From Clostridia bacterium (GTDB lineage Bacteria > Bacillota > Clostridia > Oscillospirales > CAG-272), in contig JAFTJE010000026.1 in the NCBI GenBank assembly GCA_017456545.1, positions 29,806 to 93,805 on the forward strand: DNA of 64,000 nt, given 5' to 3'. Below are positions 56,257 through 64,000 of this stretch, one piece after another. The notes under the pieces are model-generated. The model did not search any database and was not told the DNA's origin. It saw only the letters and a list, made by a program, of their open reading frames with translations. Position 1 is the stretch's first letter. Each line of letters begins with the position of its first letter. The position numbers were made by a program, and so were the translations under genes.

Positions 56257-57078
56257 ATGTTGGATCAAAAAATTTTTGGAGAAAAGTTGAAAAATCATAG
56301 AAAGATGCTGGGGTATACTCAGGAGGCAGTTGCCGATAAGCTTGAAGTATCTGCTCAAGCAGTTTCAAAATGGGAGTCCGGAGATTGCTTACCTGATTGT
56401 ATAAATTTGAAGGCAATAAGTGATTTGTATAAGATATCTGCTGATGTGCTTCTCGAAACAGAAAGCAACGGAGATGTGAAGGCGGTTTCGGATAAAATAG
56501 AGCAGATAGGTACAGAATTTATCTGGGCTAATGTGTCTAAATATGAAAATATACATTTGGAATTGGGAAATGACCTATTAAGCATGTGGAAGGGCTTGTA
56601 TTTTGCAGAGTGTGGCGATAAGGAAAAAAGTAAGGAAAGTAAAGAACAAGGAAATCTCAGAATTTGTGGCCCATTTGGTACAAAGATATGGGATGATGAG
56701 GGAATTATCTGTGTTATTAAGTCCGAATTTATAAGAAATATAGCTCCTTCATCTGACAGAAGCTATGATATATTAAGTGAGCTATGTACAAGGGAAGGAC
56801 AGCAAATTATAAGGGTGCTTTATCCTCACAAGCCTATCTCAAAGGACAAAATTATTGAAGAAACGGGAATTGAAATTCATAGACTAAATGAATTACTTCT
56901 TAAATTTACAGAGGGAAATATTATTGAATATATTTGCGATAACAGAGTTCATTTTTCCGAGTCGGGATATAAGCTTAACGGATGTTGTGGTATAGCAGCA
57001 TATATGATGGCTGCTACCCTTTATATACTTGATAAAAAACAGTATACAGTTAGTGAATATCTTTGTAATCCCGATTGA
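56257..57078 (+). CDS. XRE-family regulator with C-terminal winged-helix-like domain
   Basis: 273 residues. An N-terminal Cro/C1 helix-turn-helix (RKMLGYTQEAVADKLEVSAQAVSKWESGDCLPD) is followed by a middle region with WANVSKYENIHLELG and a C-terminal winged-helix-like part (QQIIRVLYPHKPISKDKIIEETGIEIHRLNELL). AAGGAGG precedes the ATG. The C-terminal domain may bind a ligand or a second DNA site. Its stop codon abuts the start of the next small XRE gene. Confidence 0.85.
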   Translation: MLDQKIFGEKLKNHRKMLGYTQEAVADKLEVSAQAVSKWESGDCLPDCINLKAISDLYKISADVLLETESNGDVKAVSDKIEQIGTEFIWANVSKYENIHLELGNDLLSMWKGLYFAECGDKEKSKESKEQGNLRICGPFGTKIWDDEGIICVIKSEFIRNIAPSSDRSYDILSELCTREGQQIIRVLYPHKPISKDKIIEETGIEIHRLNELLLKFTEGNIIEYICDNRVHFSESGYKLNGCCGIAAYMMAATLYILDKKQYTVSEYLCNPD

Positions 57079-57285
57079 ATGCTGTGTATAACTATTTCAT
57101 ATAGGATAAAGCAATACAGACGGGAGCATAAAATCTCGCAAGAACGATTTGGGGATATGGTTGGGGTATCGGCACAGGCTGTTTCAAAATGGGAAAGGCA
57201 ATTATCTTATCCCGATATAATGCTATGGCTAAGCTTATCTAAAATTCTTTCCTGTAATATAGAGGATTTCTTTGAAGAAATATAA
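57079..57285 (+). CDS. Small XRE-family protein
   Basis: 68 residues, a single helix-turn-helix (IKQYRREHKISQERFGDMVGVSAQAVSKWERQLSYP). Its ATG directly follows the preceding TGA with no clear ribosome site, so it would depend on translational coupling. The same HTH type as its neighbour suggests duplication. Weak evidence for expression; ATG could also be further in. Confidence 0.6.
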   Translation: MLCITISYRIKQYRREHKISQERFGDMVGVSAQAVSKWERQLSYPDIMLWLSLSKILSCNIEDFFEEI

Positions 57286-57286
57286 A

Positions 57287-57322
57287 AAAATCGGTTCAAG
57301 GTAAATACTTGAACCGATTTTT
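57287..57322 (+). terminator. Terminator after the XRE genes
   Basis: AAAATCGGTTCAAG / CTTGAACCGATTTT stem, 7-base loop, T5. Confidence 0.9.
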
Positions 57323-57468
57323 ATATCATAATTTGCCTCCAAATAAATTTTGCTTGTAAAAATTATAGGTTAGCAAATAATTTGCGTAAGTATAATAATC
57401 AAATTTCACTAATTGTGTCTTGAATTTGGTACATTAATAGTATTACTGAAAAAAATAACAAATATATA

Positions 57469-57498
57469 TTGACTTTATAAAACATTAAAGACTATAAT
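57469..57498 (+). promoter_or_regulatory. Candidate promoter of the cas operon
   Basis: TTGACT (57469-57474), 18-bp spacer, TATAAT (57493-57498). It would give a 5' leader of about 165 bases that runs antisense through the whole tracrRNA. Confidence 0.55.
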
Positions 57499-57518
57499 GT
57501 AAATAATGATATAGTCTT
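57488..57518. promoter_or_regulatory. Inverted repeat over the candidate cas promoter -10
   Basis: AAGACTATA (57488-57496) and TATAGTCTT (57510-57518), perfect 9-bp arms 13 bases apart. The left arm overlaps the -10 box. Possible operator, or a structure just past the tracrRNA terminator. Confidence 0.5.
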
Positions 57519-57634
57519 AAAAAAAAGCCTTCCGAAGAAAGCTTTTTTACACACGCTGTGTAATCGGCATAGCCGACGATTTGAGAAAATCTTTTATTTG
57601 AACTCGTAGTGTAATTTATAAGGGAATAAACTAC
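57519..57634 (-). ncRNA. tracrRNA of the type II-A system
   Basis: Read on the minus strand from a start near 57634. The anti-repeat (about 57630-57596) pairs with the CRISPR repeat: an upper stem of about 19 bp with one bulged U, an internal bulge, and a lower UUUGA stem. A short hairpin (CGGC-TAT-GCCG, 57565-57576) and ACAC/GTGT pairing follow, then a Rho-independent terminator at 57519-57548 (AAAAAAGC stem, TTCG loop, T8). Promoter and terminator positions predict about 116 nt. It is needed for crRNA maturation by RNase III and for Cas9 loading. Confidence 0.88.
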
Positions 57635-57640
57635 ACTAAC

Positions 57641-57669
57641 ATTATAATCCAAAAAGGAGATGTTGTCAA
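57641..57669 (-). promoter_or_regulatory. tracrRNA promoter
   Basis: On the minus strand TTGACA (57669-57664), 17-bp spacer, TATAAT (57646-57641): perfect consensus. It lies between the tracrRNA and the cas9 ATG at 57671, and its spacer contains the cas9 ribosome site AAAGGAGA. Confidence 0.88.
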
Positions 57670-57670
57670 T

Positions 57671-60600
57671 ATGAAAAATGAAAAATATTATGTGGGATTT
57701 GATATAGGTACCGATTCTGTTGGTTATGCAGTAACGGACGAGCAATATAATCTTTGCAAGTTTAGAGGAGAGCCAATGTGGGGAGTAAATATTTTTGAAG
57801 AGGCTCAGCTCGCTGTTGACCGTAGAAATTTTCGTGTAGCTCGTAGACGACTTGATCGTAGGCAACAACGAATTGATATGATAAGAGATATATTTGCTGA
57901 GGAAATTTATAAGGTTGATAAAAACTTTTATAAACGCTTAAAAGAAAGTTATTTATATCCTAATACAGCAGACGAAAAAGTCAGATTATTCGATTCTTAC
58001 GGAGAGCAAAGATCATATGACATAAAGTATCCGACTATTCATCATTTGATTTTTGAATTAATGCAGTCTAAGGATATTCATGATGTTAGACATATATACA
58101 TTGCTTGTGCTTGGCTTGTGGCACATAGAGGACATTTCCTTAGTGATGTCAGCAAAAATAACATTGAAGAAGTTACAGACTTCGGTGTATTATATAAAAA
58201 ACTTATAAATTATATCAAGCGAGACGGACGCATATTGCCATGGAACGATAATATCGATATAAATTTAATCTCTTCTACATTAAATAAAAAGACAGGAATC
58301 ACAAAAAAAGCAAAAGCACTTACAGAGGTTTTATTTAATGGAGAAAAGGCCCCTAAAGTAATTAATGATGAATATGAATTTAACTATGAATTATTAATTA
58401 AACTTTTATGTGGAGCTAAAGTTGGGTTAAAAGAACTTTTTGGCAGGGAAGAGTATGAAGATCTTGATGAAAAATCAATTATGCTTGGTATGGATGATGA
58501 TAAGCTTTCTGCAATTATGCAAAATATTGGCGAAGACGCAGATATTATCAGTATATTAAAATCAATATACGATTGGGCAATATTAATAGATGTCCTTAAA
58601 GGAAAAACTTCAATATCCGAAGCAAAAGTAGAAGTGTATGAACAACATAAACGGGATTTGAAATCTTTGAAATACTTTATAAAGAAATATTTACACGAGA
58701 AATATGATGAAATCTTTCGTTCTAAAACACAAAATAACAATTATGTTGCATATGTAGGAAAAAATAAAACAAAAAGTGAAGATATAAAGGTAAAAAAATC
58801 AAATAGCCAAGAAGACCTTTGTAAATACCTTCTTTCAATATTTAAGAATATATCTCCTGAAACAAATGATTTTGAAGAATATCAAAAAATTACCAATAGG
58901 TTGGAAATAAATGATTTTCTTCCCAAACAGGTAGATGGAGATAACCGTGTAATACCTTTTCAACTTTATTTGTATGAGTTAAATAAAATCCTTGATAATG
59001 CACAATCTTATTTACCCATTTTAAGTAAAGTGGATGAGAATGGTCTAACAGGTGTACAAAAAATTATTTCAGTATTTGAATTTAGAGTACCGTATTATGT
59101 AGGACCATTGAAGGAAAATCTTGAAAATAATAAAAAAATAAATTGTTGGATGAAGCGAAAGGCTGAAGGTAAGATATATCCATGGAATTTTAAGGATATG
59201 GTTGATCTTGACGCAAGTGAAGAATTGTTTATAAAAAGAATGACAAATTCTTGTACATATTTACCTGGAGAAGATGTTTTACCAAAAAATTCTCTTATAT
59301 ATTGTGCTTTTGAAGTGTTAAACGAAATAAATAAAATTAAGATTAACGGTGTTGATATATCTGTTGAGGCAAAGCAGGGTATATATGAAAATGTGTTTAT
59401 GCAATTCAATAAGGTTACACCCAAAAAAATAAAACATTTTCTTGTAGCTAACGGATATGCTTGCGAAGAAGATATAATATCCGGGTTGGATATTACAATA
59501 AAATCCTCTTTAATACCATTTAGGCTGTTCAGAAACCTTGTAGAAAAAGAATTATTATCATATTCGGATGTTGAAGCTATAATAAAACGGGCTACATATT
59601 CAGAAGATAAAGTAAGACTTTGCGAATGGTTGCATAAGGAATATCCAAAACTTCCTGATAATGAAATTAAATATATTTTAAGTATGAAATTTAAGGATTT
59701 TGGAAGATTATCCAGAAAACTTTTATGTTCTGTTGAGGGCACAAACAAACAAACCGGAGAAAGATTTACAATTTTAAGGGCAATGTGGGAAACAAATTAT
59801 AATTTTATGGAGTTGTGCTCAAATAAATTTACTTTCGCAGAGGAAATTGATAATTTCGTTAAAGTATATTATGACATTAATCCTAAAAAAATAACTGATA
59901 TTATGGACGATATGGGAGTGTCAAATGCTGTGAAGCGTCCAATTATTCGTACTCTTGATATTATAAAAGATGTGGTTAAGGTGAAAGGTAATGCACCGGA
60001 AATGATATTCATTGAGATGGCAAGGGGAACTATTGATAATCAAAAAGGTAAAAGAACCGATTCTCGACTGAAGCAAATTTGCGATTTATACAGTAAAATT
60101 GATACAGAAGAAGTTAGAGAATTGCAGACACAACTTGATGAACTTGGCGAAACTGTTCATAACAAACTTCAAAGTGATAAATTATTTTTGTATTTTATTC
60201 AACTTGGCAAGTGCCTATATACCGGAAAGCCGATTGATATTGAATCAATTATAAAAGGGGATGGTAAATTTAATATTGAGCATATATACCCTCGCAGTTT
60301 TGTTAAAGATGACAGTATAATTAATAATCTTATACTTGTTGATTCAAAAGCAAACGGTGATAAAAGCGATACATTTCCTATATCATCTCAAATACTGAAT
60401 AATATGAGTATGTATTGGGCGTATCTCAATAAAATTGGGCTATTGAGTGACGAAAAATTAAAAAGGTTATCTCGTAAGACTCCTTTTACAGATGATGAGA
60501 AATTTGAGTTTACAAATCGTCAACTTGTTGAAACTCGTCAGTCAACTAAGGCCATAGGTGCCTTGTTAAAAGAGATGTATCCAAATAGTGAGATAGTATA

Positions 60601-61762
60601 TGTAAAAGCAGGACTTATATCTGACTTCAGAGATGAGTTTAATATATTAAAATCAAGAACAGTAAATGACCTTCATCATGCTAAGGACGCTTATCTTAAT
60701 ATTGTTGTAGGTAATGTATGGCATCATAAATTCAGTAAACAATTTTGGAAAGCAGACAGTAATAATAATGCAAAACATGAAGTGGTATTTTCGAGAACTA
60801 TAAAATGTGGAGATAAAACAATTTGGAGAGGAGTAGAAGATAAAAACAGAATTGTTAATACAGTTAAGAAGAATACTCCTCGCTTAACAAAGTATGCATT
60901 TTGCAGAAAAGGAGGATTCTTTGATCAAAACCCGGTTTCCTCTGCAGAAGGACTTGTGTCGAGGAAAAAAACTTTGCCATCAGAAATTTATGGTGGATAT
61001 AATAAAACTACAGCATCATTTTTCGTTTTGGTAAAATACAAGGTTGGAAAAAAACAAGATATTTTTGTTATGCCAATTGAGTTGTTATATGCAGATAAAT
61101 TTGTCAACGATAATACTTTTGCGTTAGAGTACGCAAGGAAAACTATAGGTGGAGTCTTGGGTAAACCTGTTGATGAGATTGACTTTTTATTAAACAAACG
61201 GTTTATTAAGATTAATACGATTTTATCTTTGAATGGGTTGAATGTTTGTATAACAGGAAAATCAGGTGGAGGTCGCCAGTTGGGAGTATCTTTGTTGGAA
61301 TCATATAAAACATCTTTTGAAAATGAGTGTTATATCAAAAAACTTGAATCATTTGAAAACAAAAGAAGGAGAAATTCTAATATTATTTTGAGTGAAGCAT
61401 ATGACGGAATTTCAAAGGATAAAAATAACGAATTATACGATAATTTTATATCCAAATTCAACAAACCACCATTTATGTATCGACCTGCAAATCCAATTGA
61501 TACACTAATGAATAAAAAAGAAGAGTTTAAGAGGCTTTCTCCTGATAGACAGGTATCTGTTTTACTTCAAATTTTAGGATTGTTTGGAAGAGCACCGAGT
61601 GCTGATCTAACTGATATTGGAGGTGTAGCAAAAGCCGGAGCTGCTAAATTATCGTCCAATGTTTCAAATTGGAAGAAAAATTATACAGATGTTCGTATTA
61701 TTGATAAATCCTCTTCCGGGCTTTATGAAACAGTTTCTGAAAATATAATTAATCTATTATGA
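57671..61762 (+). CDS. cas9: CRISPR-associated endonuclease Cas9, type II-A
   Basis: RNA-guided DNA nuclease, 1363 residues, in the usual II-A range. RuvC-I has Asp11 (YYVGFDIGTDSVG). The Arg-rich bridge helix is RRNFRVARRRLDRRQQRIDMI. RuvC-II has Glu782 (PEMIFIEMARG). HNH has His871 (NIEHIYPRSF) and Asn895 (KANGDKSD). RuvC-III has His1002-His1003 and Asp1006 (HHAKDAYLN). All catalytic residues are present, so both strands should be cut. The PAM-interacting region is C-terminal and its PAM is not predictable by eye. The ribosome site AAAGGAGA overlaps the tracrRNA promoter. It overlaps cas1 by 4 bases. Confidence 0.97.
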   Translation: MKNEKYYVGFDIGTDSVGYAVTDEQYNLCKFRGEPMWGVNIFEEAQLAVDRRNFRVARRRLDRRQQRIDMIRDIFAEEIYKVDKNFYKRLKESYLYPNTADEKVRLFDSYGEQRSYDIKYPTIHHLIFELMQSKDIHDVRHIYIACAWLVAHRGHFLSDVSKNNIEEVTDFGVLYKKLINYIKRDGRILPWNDNIDINLISSTLNKKTGITKKAKALTEVLFNGEKAPKVINDEYEFNYELLIKLLCGAKVGLKELFGREEYEDLDEKSIMLGMDDDKLSAIMQNIGEDADIISILKSIYDWAILIDVLKGKTSISEAKVEVYEQHKRDLKSLKYFIKKYLHEKYDEIFRSKTQNNNYVAYVGKNKTKSEDIKVKKSNSQEDLCKYLLSIFKNISPETNDFEEYQKITNRLEINDFLPKQVDGDNRVIPFQLYLYELNKILDNAQSYLPILSKVDENGLTGVQKIISVFEFRVPYYVGPLKENLENNKKINCWMKRKAEGKIYPWNFKDMVDLDASEELFIKRMTNSCTYLPGEDVLPKNSLIYCAFEVLNEINKIKINGVDISVEAKQGIYENVFMQFNKVTPKKIKHFLVANGYACEEDIISGLDITIKSSLIPFRLFRNLVEKELLSYSDVEAIIKRATYSEDKVRLCEWLHKEYPKLPDNEIKYILSMKFKDFGRLSRKLLCSVEGTNKQTGERFTILRAMWETNYNFMELCSNKFTFAEEIDNFVKVYYDINPKKITDIMDDMGVSNAVKRPIIRTLDIIKDVVKVKGNAPEMIFIEMARGTIDNQKGKRTDSRLKQICDLYSKIDTEEVRELQTQLDELGETVHNKLQSDKLFLYFIQLGKCLYTGKPIDIESIIKGDGKFNIEHIYPRSFVKDDSIINNLILVDSKANGDKSDTFPISSQILNNMSMYWAYLNKIGLLSDEKLKRLSRKTPFTDDEKFEFTNRQLVETRQSTKAIGALLKEMYPNSEIVYVKAGLISDFRDEFNILKSRTVNDLHHAKDAYLNIVVGNVWHHKFSKQFWKADSNNNAKHEVVFSRTIKCGDKTIWRGVEDKNRIVNTVKKNTPRLTKYAFCRKGGFFDQNPVSSAEGLVSRKKTLPSEIYGGYNKTTASFFVLVKYKVGKKQDIFVMPIELLYADKFVNDNTFALEYARKTIGGVLGKPVDEIDFLLNKRFIKINTILSLNGLNVCITGKSGGGRQLGVSLLESYKTSFENECYIKKLESFENKRRRNSNIILSEAYDGISKDKNNELYDNFISKFNKPPFMYRPANPIDTLMNKKEEFKRLSPDRQVSVLLQILGLFGRAPSADLTDIGGVAKAGAAKLSSNVSNWKKNYTDVRIIDKSSSGLYETVSENIINLL

Positions 61763-62628
61763 GTTGGAGAACGGTTATAATTACTTCTCGTTGTAAATTG
61801 GATTATAAAATGGGATTTATGGTAGTTCGTGCCGAAGAAACTAAAAAAATATTTCTCGACGAAATTGCCATATTGCTCATTGAAAATCCGGCTGTTTCAT
61901 TTACAGGCTGTTTACTTGAAACTCTTATTGAGAAGAAGGTGCGTATCATATTTTGTGATGCAAAGCGTAATCCGAGTGCAGAGTTTGTTCCATATTATAA
62001 CTCGTACGACTGTTCTCGTAAAATCAAGGCACAAATGTCATGGATAGATGATCTAAAAGGAGAAGTATGGGCTAATATAGTAGCTGAAAAAATTAGAAAA
62101 CAAGCTGACCATTTGAATGATTTAGGTAAAACAAAAGAAACGGATTTATTAAGGTCATATCTTTATCAGATAGAGCCATATGATAAAAGTAATCGTGAAG
62201 GGCATGCTGCAAAGGTTTATTTTAACGCATTGTTTGGTATGGGTTTTACAAGAAGTGAGGAAAACATTATTAATTCAGCATTAAATTACGGATATAGTAT
62301 AATTCTATCTGTTTTCAATAGAGAAATAGTGTCGAATGGTTATTTGACTCAACTTGGTATTTTTCATGATAATATGTTTAATCATTTTAATTTAAGTTGT
62401 GACTTGATGGAACCGTTTCGTATATTAATTGACCGTAAAATTGTATCTATGAAACTTACTGAATTTTCAGTTGAGGAAAAACATCAATTGGTCAATACAT
62501 TGAATGATACGGTATATATTAATCAAACTAAACAAACCGTCATAAATGCTATTAAAATTTATTGTAGAAGTATATTTGATGCATTAAATGATAACGATCT
62601 TTCACTAATACAATTTTATTACATATGA
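61759..62628 (+). CDS. cas1: CRISPR-associated endonuclease Cas1
   Basis: Integrase of the spacer-acquisition complex, 289 residues. The metal-binding residues appear as Glu147 ([10 protein letters not shown]), His203 (GIFHDNMF) and Glu218 (CDLMEPFR). [19 protein letters not shown] is the typical type II N terminus. Overlaps of 4 bases with cas9 and cas2 show one operon. Confidence 0.96.
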
Positions 62629-62945
62629 GCTATAGATTTATGAGAGTATTGGTTTTTTTCGACCTTCCGACTGAAACACTTGAAGATAAACGGGGGTATA
62701 GAAAATTTAGAAAATTACTTATTAAAAACGGTTTTTTAATGATGCAAGAATCCGTATATTGCAGAATGTTATTAACACCAACTGCAGGTAAGACAGTTTT
62801 AGATATAATACGGAAAAACCGTCCTAAACATGGTATTGTTCAGGTAATGTCCATTACAGAAAAACAATTTGCCTCTATGGAATTTATTACAGGAGAAAAT
62901 CATAGTGAGGTTATAGATAACGATGAAAGGTTAATCATATTATGA
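62625..62945 (+). CDS. cas2: CRISPR-associated endoribonuclease Cas2
   Basis: 106 residues, ferredoxin-like fold. The conserved Asp is in [13 protein letters not shown], and [23 protein letters not shown] follows. It bridges Cas1 dimers in the adaptation complex. Overlaps cas1 and csn2 by 4 bases. Confidence 0.96.
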
Positions 62946-63607
62946 AATTAATTCATAAGCGTATGTCACATATTATTACATTTGAAGGTGGATATGTAAG
63001 TGAACTTGCAGTTGAAAATCGAAAAATGTTTTATGATATGGTTAATAACATAATAACTCAGATAGAAGGATTACATGGTGATTTTACATTATCTATAAAT
63101 AATCGTCCTGTTGAGTTTAGTAAGTATGCCGATGTGACATTACAATTTGCACCATTTTTGCTAAATAGAAAAAGTTTATTAAACAAGTTATGTAGTTTGT
63201 TGGAGCAAAGGGCAGCAAATCCGGATTTTTATATTGAAACAGCAAAATTACTTGGAACAATAGAATCGTATTTTCATGGGGTTGCTGAGGACTTACCGTT
63301 TGAAATAGATTGTGGAAAGATTGCCATTGGTCCAATAATTAAAGCACTTTCTCCACAAATTTCAGAAGATGATAAAACTGGTATAGAAAAGATATTTTCA
63401 TATATGGAATTAGTAAGAGAGCTTGATAAAGAAAGACTTTTTATAATGATTAATATGCGTTCATATTTTTCAGATTCTGATATGAATTGTTTTATTCAAA
63501 GTGCAACACTTCATGATTTCAAAGTCCTTTTGTTAGAAAGTGCATCTTATACAAAACTTAATAATGTAAAAAGATATATAATTGATGAAGATTTATGTGA
63601 ATTTTAA
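62942..63607 (+). CDS. csn2: Csn2, type II-A adaptation protein
   Basis: 221 residues. Csn2 is a tetrameric ring that binds DNA ends during spacer uptake and defines subtype II-A. The N terminus [33 protein letters not shown] and a C-terminal [35 protein letters not shown] match the family. The length is that of canonical short Csn2. It ends 95 bases before the first repeat. Confidence 0.93.
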
Positions 63608-63685: not shown

Positions 63686-63703
63686 CTCAAATATTGATTT
63701 GAG
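63686..63703 (+). promoter_or_regulatory. Leader-repeat junction dyad with leader-anchoring-like sequence
   Basis: CTCAAAT-ATTG-ATTTGAG, perfect 7-bp arms, the last G being the first base of repeat 1. ATTTGAG is the form of the leader-anchoring sequence known to guide Cas1-Cas2 in some streptococcal II-A systems. Confidence 0.65.
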
Positions 63704-64000
63704 TTTGAGAGTAGTGTAATTTTATAAGGGACTCAAACCAAAGCCCCCACGGCTCGGCGTGTTCATTCGTTTGAGAGTAGTGTAATTTTATAAGGGACTC
63801 AAACTTGTTTTAATTCTGTTACGGGTTTATCGTTGTTTGAGAGTAGTGTAATTTTATAAGGGACTCAAACTTAATTCACTAACCCTATTCACTCAATATA
63901 TGTTTGAGAGTAGTGTGATTTTATAAGGGACTCAAACAAGTATTAAAGCGAAGGCTATTATAACCGTGTTTGAGAGTAGTGTAATTTTATAAGGGACTCA
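63703..64000 (+). CRISPR. Type II-A CRISPR array, leader end (continues past window)
   Basis: 36-bp repeats at 63703-63738, 63769-63804, 63835-63870, 63902-63937 and a fifth from 63968 cut at the window end. Each begins GTTTGAGAGTAGTGT and ends AAGGGACTCAAAC; the termini GTTTGAG/CTCAAAC are inverted. Repeat 4 has G instead of A at position 16. Spacers are 30, 30, 31 and 30 bp. crRNA orientation is plus, the same as cas9, because the repeat pairs with the tracrRNA anti-repeat in that sense. The leader (63608-63702) lies beside csn2, so the spacers seen are the most recent. Confidence 0.98.

Follow-up and report, generated by a model that had tools for sequence, protein, structure and literature searches.

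A locus of clustered regularly interspaced short palindromic repeats (CRISPR) was examined in a stretch of 64,000 nucleotides (nt), here called the window, from a Clostridia bacterium (Oscillospirales, CAG-272; assembly GCA_017456545.1, contig JAFTJE010000026.1, positions 29,806 to 93,805 of the forward strand). The promoter of its trans-activating CRISPR RNA (tracrRNA) is fused to the start region of cas9, and the tracrRNA gene appears to lie nested, on the opposite strand, within the leader of the cas operon (Table 1). As judged from the sequence, it is moderately probable that these convergent genes keep each other in check, through interference between polymerases and pairing of the antisense transcripts. 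An original prediction, made from this DNA alone, had described one interlocked control region: that layout is confirmed, is conserved among related loci and goes with one clade of Cas9 proteins, while the collision of polymerases and the pairing of transcripts that it foresaw are put forward here as proposals.

Table 1. Coordinates of the cas9 region and its surroundings in the window
Feature	Position	Strand	Remarks
Terminator-like inverted repeat	57282..57326	+	19-nt arms, 95% complementary; T-rich 3' arm by reading
Predicted cas9 promoter	57469..57498	+	TTGACT-18-TATAAT, 11/12 matches; convergent with tracrRNA promoter
Predicted cas9 leader	57505..57670	+	~166 nt; follows from promoter position
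tracrRNA, predicted primary transcript	57519..57634	-	Anti-repeat pairs with repeat of own locus
tracrRNA terminator	57519..57542	-	UUCG-loop hairpin 57542-57527, U8 tail 57526-57519
Anti-repeat	57597..57625	-	Complement resembles CRISPR repeat at 63703 onward
5' hairpin of tracrRNA	57607..57638	-	Repeat-like arm 57638-57626 pairs with distal anti-repeat 57619-57607
tracrRNA promoter	57641..57669	-	TTGACA-17-TATAAT, 12/12 consensus matches
cas9 Shine-Dalgarno AGGAG	57655..57659	+	Within tracrRNA promoter spacer; read from sequence
cas9	57671..61762	+	1363 amino acids; TIGR01865, E 1.1e-243
cas1	61759..62628	+	TIGR03639, E 1.5e-88
cas2	62625..62945	+	TIGR01573, E 2e-20
csn2	62942..63607	+	TIGR01866, E 1.9e-39
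CRISPR array	63703..64000	+	Five repeats visible; last one cut by window/contig end

Predicted convergent promoters of tracrRNA and cas9

The tracrRNA promoter displays a -35 element TTGACA (57669-57664), a spacer of 17 nt and a -10 element TATAAT (57646-57641). The 1.9 Mb genome contains the pattern TTGACA-N17-TATAAT 79 times and its backwards reading not once; the score of the promoter was attained by none of 200 shuffles of the local DNA. A looser scan was less striking: it listed seven promoter-like sites, where shuffled DNA gave 3.4 on average (sd 2.0). A single base (57670) separates the -35 element from the ATG of cas9 (57671). It had been claimed that a consensus promoter on the minus strand drives the tracrRNA and that the ribosome site of cas9 lies in its spacer, one base short of the ATG; the coordinates agree and the full consensus is rarely matched by chance, the transcription start being a prediction.

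On the plus strand, the predicted cas9 promoter is composed of TTGACT (57469-57474), a spacer of 18 nt and TATAAT (57493-57498), with a predicted start near 57505. TTGACT-N18-TATAAT was encountered four times in the genome and never in the backwards control; its score was likewise attained in 0/200 local shuffles. Positions 57461-57505 were 91% identical to those of the same-genus relative L008 (Cas9 identity 93% over 563 residues), compared with 60% and 59% in the flanking DNA. A leader started there would span the whole predicted tracrRNA, from its start near 57634 to the U tail templated by 57526-57519, so that the best plus promoter yielding a leader fully antisense to the tracrRNA, as originally proposed, holds on prediction. 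Between the tracrRNA and the cas9 ATG, the plus promoter of the window was not significant (p 0.58).

The pairing of the anti-repeat with the repeat of its own locus reaches -30.7 kcal/mol, whereas shuffled repeats average -11.0; the anti-repeat is followed by hairpins and by the UUCG terminator with its U8 tail. A DNA search recovered one genomic copy of the tracrRNA. Rfam returned seven matches for positions 57000-58000, every one below its gathering score, and none above it for the tracrRNA loci of six relatives (L035, L010, L037, L066, L046, L030). The terminator core was more stable on the minus strand (-4.8 kcal/mol) than on the plus strand (-0.9), with eight and six U, respectively, in the following eight positions; the plus strand forms a poor hairpin there, yet is followed by T6.

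Conservation among related loci

Loci were gathered from overlapping searches of 295, 29, 394 and 391 genomes, the N-terminus of Cas9 being required. Excluded were matches whose E exceeded 1e-20 (for the most part Cas9s of other types, but also the 38-residue N-terminal fragment L081, with 61% identity), fragments that lacked the N-terminus or had a broken frame (L011, L012, L053, L054, L062 and L076, for example) and the duplicates L028 and L029. Among the 55 loci kept, 54 displayed an anti-repeat anchor oriented as in the window, in the 230 nt preceding cas9, L049 being without anchor. The anchor criterion was at least 14 of 21 letters, and 42 of the 54 reached at least 17. Promoters were called significant at p<=0.05 against 200 dinucleotide shuffles per locus.

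The minus (tracrRNA) promoter was significant in all 54 anchored loci. Plus promoters upstream of the tracrRNA were significant in 31 (median p 0.02), and those between the tracrRNA and the cas9 ATG in one only (mean p 0.48), which is the level of chance; the antisense leader is consequently the best-supported source of cas9 mRNA. When 100-nt segments were scanned, plus promoters peaked just upstream of the terminator (31/54), whereas eight control segments gave 5/54, 9/53, 7/53, 3/51, 3/51, 2/54, 10/54 and 1/54. The control with 9/53 is the next plus segment upstream and may contain real promoters. The control with 10/54 is the minus strand within cas9 (+30 to +130), where the promoter-like sites with p<=0.05 are weak and in several loci lie near +71 to +79 (stretch 57671-57870 of the window); they probably reflect conserved codons.

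A Cas9 tree was built from 52 loci, L077 and L078 being too short for inclusion. The window fell into a clade of 24 loci (support 100/100), all of which displayed an exact TTGACA with the -35 element at most 2 nt from the cas9 start; the plus promoter was significant in 15 of them. Equally tight spacing was found in six loci outside this clade, four of them in the tree. The distance kept constant by the -35 element is that to the anti-repeat (73-83 nt in 45/54 loci, tight or loose) and not that to the ATG, which identifies it as an element of the tracrRNA promoter. In the Listeria locus L086, taken as outgroup, 100 nt separate the tracrRNA anchor from the downstream cas9, and the promoter is weaker (score 8.7). 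A cas9 on an E. coli plasmid sits, by reading, behind an apparent engineered expression cassette.

The strand preference of the terminator was general. At least six U in eight positions after the hairpin core were present in 48/54 loci on the tracrRNA strand and in 13/54 on the cas9 strand, and in a direct comparison the tracrRNA strand was the richer in 48, the cas9 strand in one, and both were equal in five. Since the terminator favours the tracrRNA strand, plus transcripts should mostly read through it. Arrays were found at 13 of 21 loci examined, and the anti-repeats of these 13 paired with their own repeats better than with shuffles, two of the repeats being recovered only in part.

The tracrRNA is further predicted to form a hairpin at its 5' end, in which a repeat-like arm folds onto the distal anti-repeat. 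In the window it comprises 12 standard pairs and one G-U pair, nine pairs being left when the RNA begins at the predicted start (57634), from where the fold reached -6.9 kcal/mol (z-score -5.0). Over the 54 loci, the z-score of this fold was below -1.5 in 39 (median -3.4). Because a helix-score cut-off of 12 let through 40% of shuffles, stricter ones were applied; a score of at least 18 was attained in 24 of the 45 loci with enough sequence, against 1.2% of shuffles. The distance from anti-repeat anchor to -35 element is bimodal: it measures 73-83 nt in 45 loci, and 54-62 nt separate the two in the other nine (L030, L065, L067, L068, L069, L070, L071, L072 and L078). In these nine, the predicted RNA start is too close to the anti-repeat for the hairpin to form, and the hairpin is absent. 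Given two distance groups and its absence from the shorter one, the hairpin arm looks like an added module of ~16-20 nt. In L060 the hairpin is kept, by reading, where the anti-repeat deviates from the complement of its own repeat.

Pair changes showed no clear bias as to strand (25 G-U against 19 A-C), and thus do not assign the hairpin to the tracrRNA strand; minimum free energy folds were more stable for the minus version in 30 loci and for the plus version in 14, with ten ties. By folding, the primary tracrRNA would mask part of its own anti-repeat. As the duplex with CRISPR RNA (crRNA; -30.7 kcal/mol) is far more stable than the hairpin (-6.9), the latter could delay loading but not prevent it.

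Proposed mutual control and alternative readings

Layout, conservation, terminator bias and complementarity are established by sequence and comparison. Promoters that face each other and yield products overlapping over their full length point to mutual interference in cis. In the proposed mechanism, cas9 would be transcribed from 57469-57498, just beyond the tracrRNA terminator, across the entire tracrRNA gene, and the tracrRNA in the opposite direction from the promoter that holds the cas9 Shine-Dalgarno in its spacer. A polymerase that sits on the strong tracrRNA promoter, or is departing from it, would obstruct one coming from the cas promoter, and a polymerase passing from the cas promoter would clear the tracrRNA promoter. 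Leader and tracrRNA would pair along their overlap and then be cleaved by RNase III. Both genes would thereby limit each other in cis, with no need for Cas9, and the net effect would be a high level of tracrRNA and a low, stable level of Cas9, in constant proportion to each other. By sequence, face-to-face promoters would give complementary overlapping transcripts, as is characteristic of cis-antisense pairs, and these are predicted to bind each other very stably (-194.1 kcal/mol for the pair; -25.4 and -28.7 for the single RNAs).

The transcription starts, the interference, the role of RNase III and the net effect are inferred from the sequence. Several points weigh against this proposal. No significant plus promoter was present in the scanned stretch of 23/54 loci, among them L002 and L034 (Cas9 identities 63% and 66%), although L034 displayed a good one farther upstream; nor was the upstream plus stretch significant in the Listeria locus (p 0.615). 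In 12 of the 54 loci the anchor agrees at only 14-16 of its 21 letters and was assigned by reading, a level within reach of wrong-strand matches (15 in some loci); the loci are also mutually related, so that the counts are not independent. The window itself, like 12 further loci, has a U-rich tail on the plus strand too, and some plus transcripts could stop there. Finally, the tracrRNA pairing ends ~20 nt short of the cas9 Shine-Dalgarno, and the mean predicted accessibility of this site was unchanged by pairing in 30 tight loci (0.50 free, 0.52 bound); it dropped from 0.32 to 0.16 in the window and rose from 0.29 to 0.33 in the nearest relative. Since pairing leaves average accessibility unchanged, the proposed control is placed at transcription and RNA decay and not at ribosome binding. 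A general direct block of translation by tracrRNA pairing was considered and finds no support, there being no mean effect on accessibility in the tight loci.

The unchanged accessibility counts in favour of a rival reading, in which the layout is simply compact, intergenic shrinkage alone having brought the tracrRNA promoter to the cas9 start with no mutual control. A near-constant distance from anti-repeat to promoter, combined with a nearby ATG, would by itself yield tight spacing. The retention of that spacing in 24/24 members of a deep clade speaks against such a passive origin, as does the enrichment of plus promoters beyond the tracrRNA and not between tracrRNA and cas9, and we consider it rather unlikely. 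The placement of plus promoters also bears on a further reading, in which the palindromic -10 element ATTATAAT (57641-57648) fires in both directions, so that cas9 would start at ~57655 with a leader of ~16 nt. Each strand does carry a perfect TATAAT, and divergent promoters with symmetrical elements are reported in bacteria (PMC12825309, PMC10268837). By reading, no properly spaced plus -35 element accompanies it, further plus elements beyond the shared -10 are at chance between tracrRNA and ATG (1/54), and the start would fall within the Shine-Dalgarno itself, which makes such firing improbable. That a longer tracrRNA from within cas9 acts as a natural single-guide RNA and directs Cas9 to its own promoter, the 5' hairpin serving as a repeat-like linker, is very improbable: part of the repeat is copied in the hairpin, weak minus sites occur within cas9 in 10/54 loci and the window has, by reading, a weak bulged lower-stem partner ~10 nt before the hairpin, but the tracrRNA promoter, with a score of 14.6, exceeds the best site of the window within cas9 (+3 to +200; score 5.3), comparison of the minus strand of 57800-57600 with 57330-57800 in the window gave no match of 10 or 11 nt, and no proximal cas promoter is there to be repressed (p 0.58 in the window, 1/54 loci).

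Mutual control by nested convergent genes may be carried one step further, to a Cas9-independent RNA homeostat in a broad group of Clostridia without tracr-L, the long tracrRNA form of streptococci; we hold this extension only tentatively. The cas9 leader, which carries a sense copy of the anti-repeat, would be a decoy for the tracrRNA, and the tracrRNA would silence or trim the leader with RNase III. The 5' hairpin, as a mimic of the repeat, would mask the anti-repeat, which only a true crRNA or the leader would open.

Locus content, precedents and significance

The contig ends within the locus; the draft genome to which it belongs has 1.9 Mb in 43 contigs and is 90.6% complete. Matches to NCBIfam models above cut-off for Cas9, Cas1, Cas2 and Csn2 assign it to type II-A, the four genes forming a single row in which neighbours adjoin or overlap; the repeat array and a tracrRNA with a repeat-pairing anti-repeat, also expected of this type, are both present. 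The four complete spacers of the array had no exact match in a viral contig collection, so no protospacer-adjacent motif (PAM) was derived. Two genes resembling helix-turn-helix (HTH) regulators (56257-57285) directly precede the cas locus and are followed by the terminator-like inverted repeat; in L008, by reading, the end of the second HTH gene is likewise found upstream of cas9. A terminator scan of 57280-57760 reported no terminator, this inverted repeat included. From its sequence it could shield cas9 from upstream read-through, and since it resembles a terminator, cas9 probably needs a promoter of its own.

In S. pyogenes, the tracrRNA is likewise encoded upstream of cas9 on the opposite strand, and the 5' stretch of tracr-L pairs with the anti-repeat. 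The window shares with this system the type II-A assignment, the orientation of the tracrRNA and a 5' stretch pairing with the anti-repeat. It differs by lacking a strong second tracrRNA promoter, a guide match of 10-11 nt and a proximal cas promoter, and the control proposed for it is independent of Cas9. Tracr-L directs Cas9 to the cas promoter by an 11-nt match beside a PAM (PMC8616872, PMC11417352). Such an RNA was sought in the window and rejected, there being no guide match and no strong upstream promoter (5.3 against 14.6). The original prediction, that the locus resembles but is not identical to the control known in S. pyogenes, is borne out as far as the testable sequence signs of tracr-L go, none of which was found in the window.

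S. pyogenes was the only precedent cited there; a closer one, together with the 5'-terminal hairpin, had gone unmentioned. In group B Streptococcus, the distal cas promoter P2cas is stated to be sufficient by itself once P1cas is deleted (PMC12216829); P1cas with autorepression by tracr-L exists in strains not belonging to the CC-17 lineage, and P2cas is controlled by CovR. An antisense RNA covering the 3' end of the tracrRNA is described for agalactiae (PMC4448216). P2cas is the nearest precedent, nearer than S. pyogenes, and the window resembles a P2cas-only design; unlike group B Streptococcus, it displays no sign of P1cas or tracr-L, and the promoter of its tracrRNA merges into the start region of cas9. 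Symmetrical bidirectional promoters (PMC12825309, PMC10268837) share with it the palindromic -10 element, but the window shows no plus -35 element by reading and plus promoters at that place are not above chance. In a literature surveyed mainly by titles and abstracts, where absence is unproven, the fusion of tracrRNA promoter and cas9 start, its conservation and the masking hairpin were unreported.

Plasmid RNAI/RNAII exemplifies cis-antisense control with convergent promoters. The window resembles it, by sequence, in complete complementarity, hairpins on either strand and opposing transcription, and differs in that the antisense RNA is an essential cofactor of the protein encoded in sense.

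How cells hold Cas9 below self-damaging levels is an active question, to which tracr-L of streptococci is, to our knowledge, the best worked-out answer. The present layout is a variation on known arrangements of cas genes, and its regulatory meaning is drawn from sequence. It reveals a clostridial group with a conserved nested layout, in which the RNA cofactor lies antisense to the leader of the very protein it serves; none of the signs of tracr-L that were tested appears in the window, and the two components of Cas9 may restrain one another directly. The design of guide RNAs from these Cas9s is affected as well, since folding predicts that part of the anti-repeat is hidden in the primary tracrRNA. 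If the homeostat were true, RNA pairing and opposed transcription would by themselves keep the amounts of Cas9 and tracrRNA, and the loading of crRNA, in balance.
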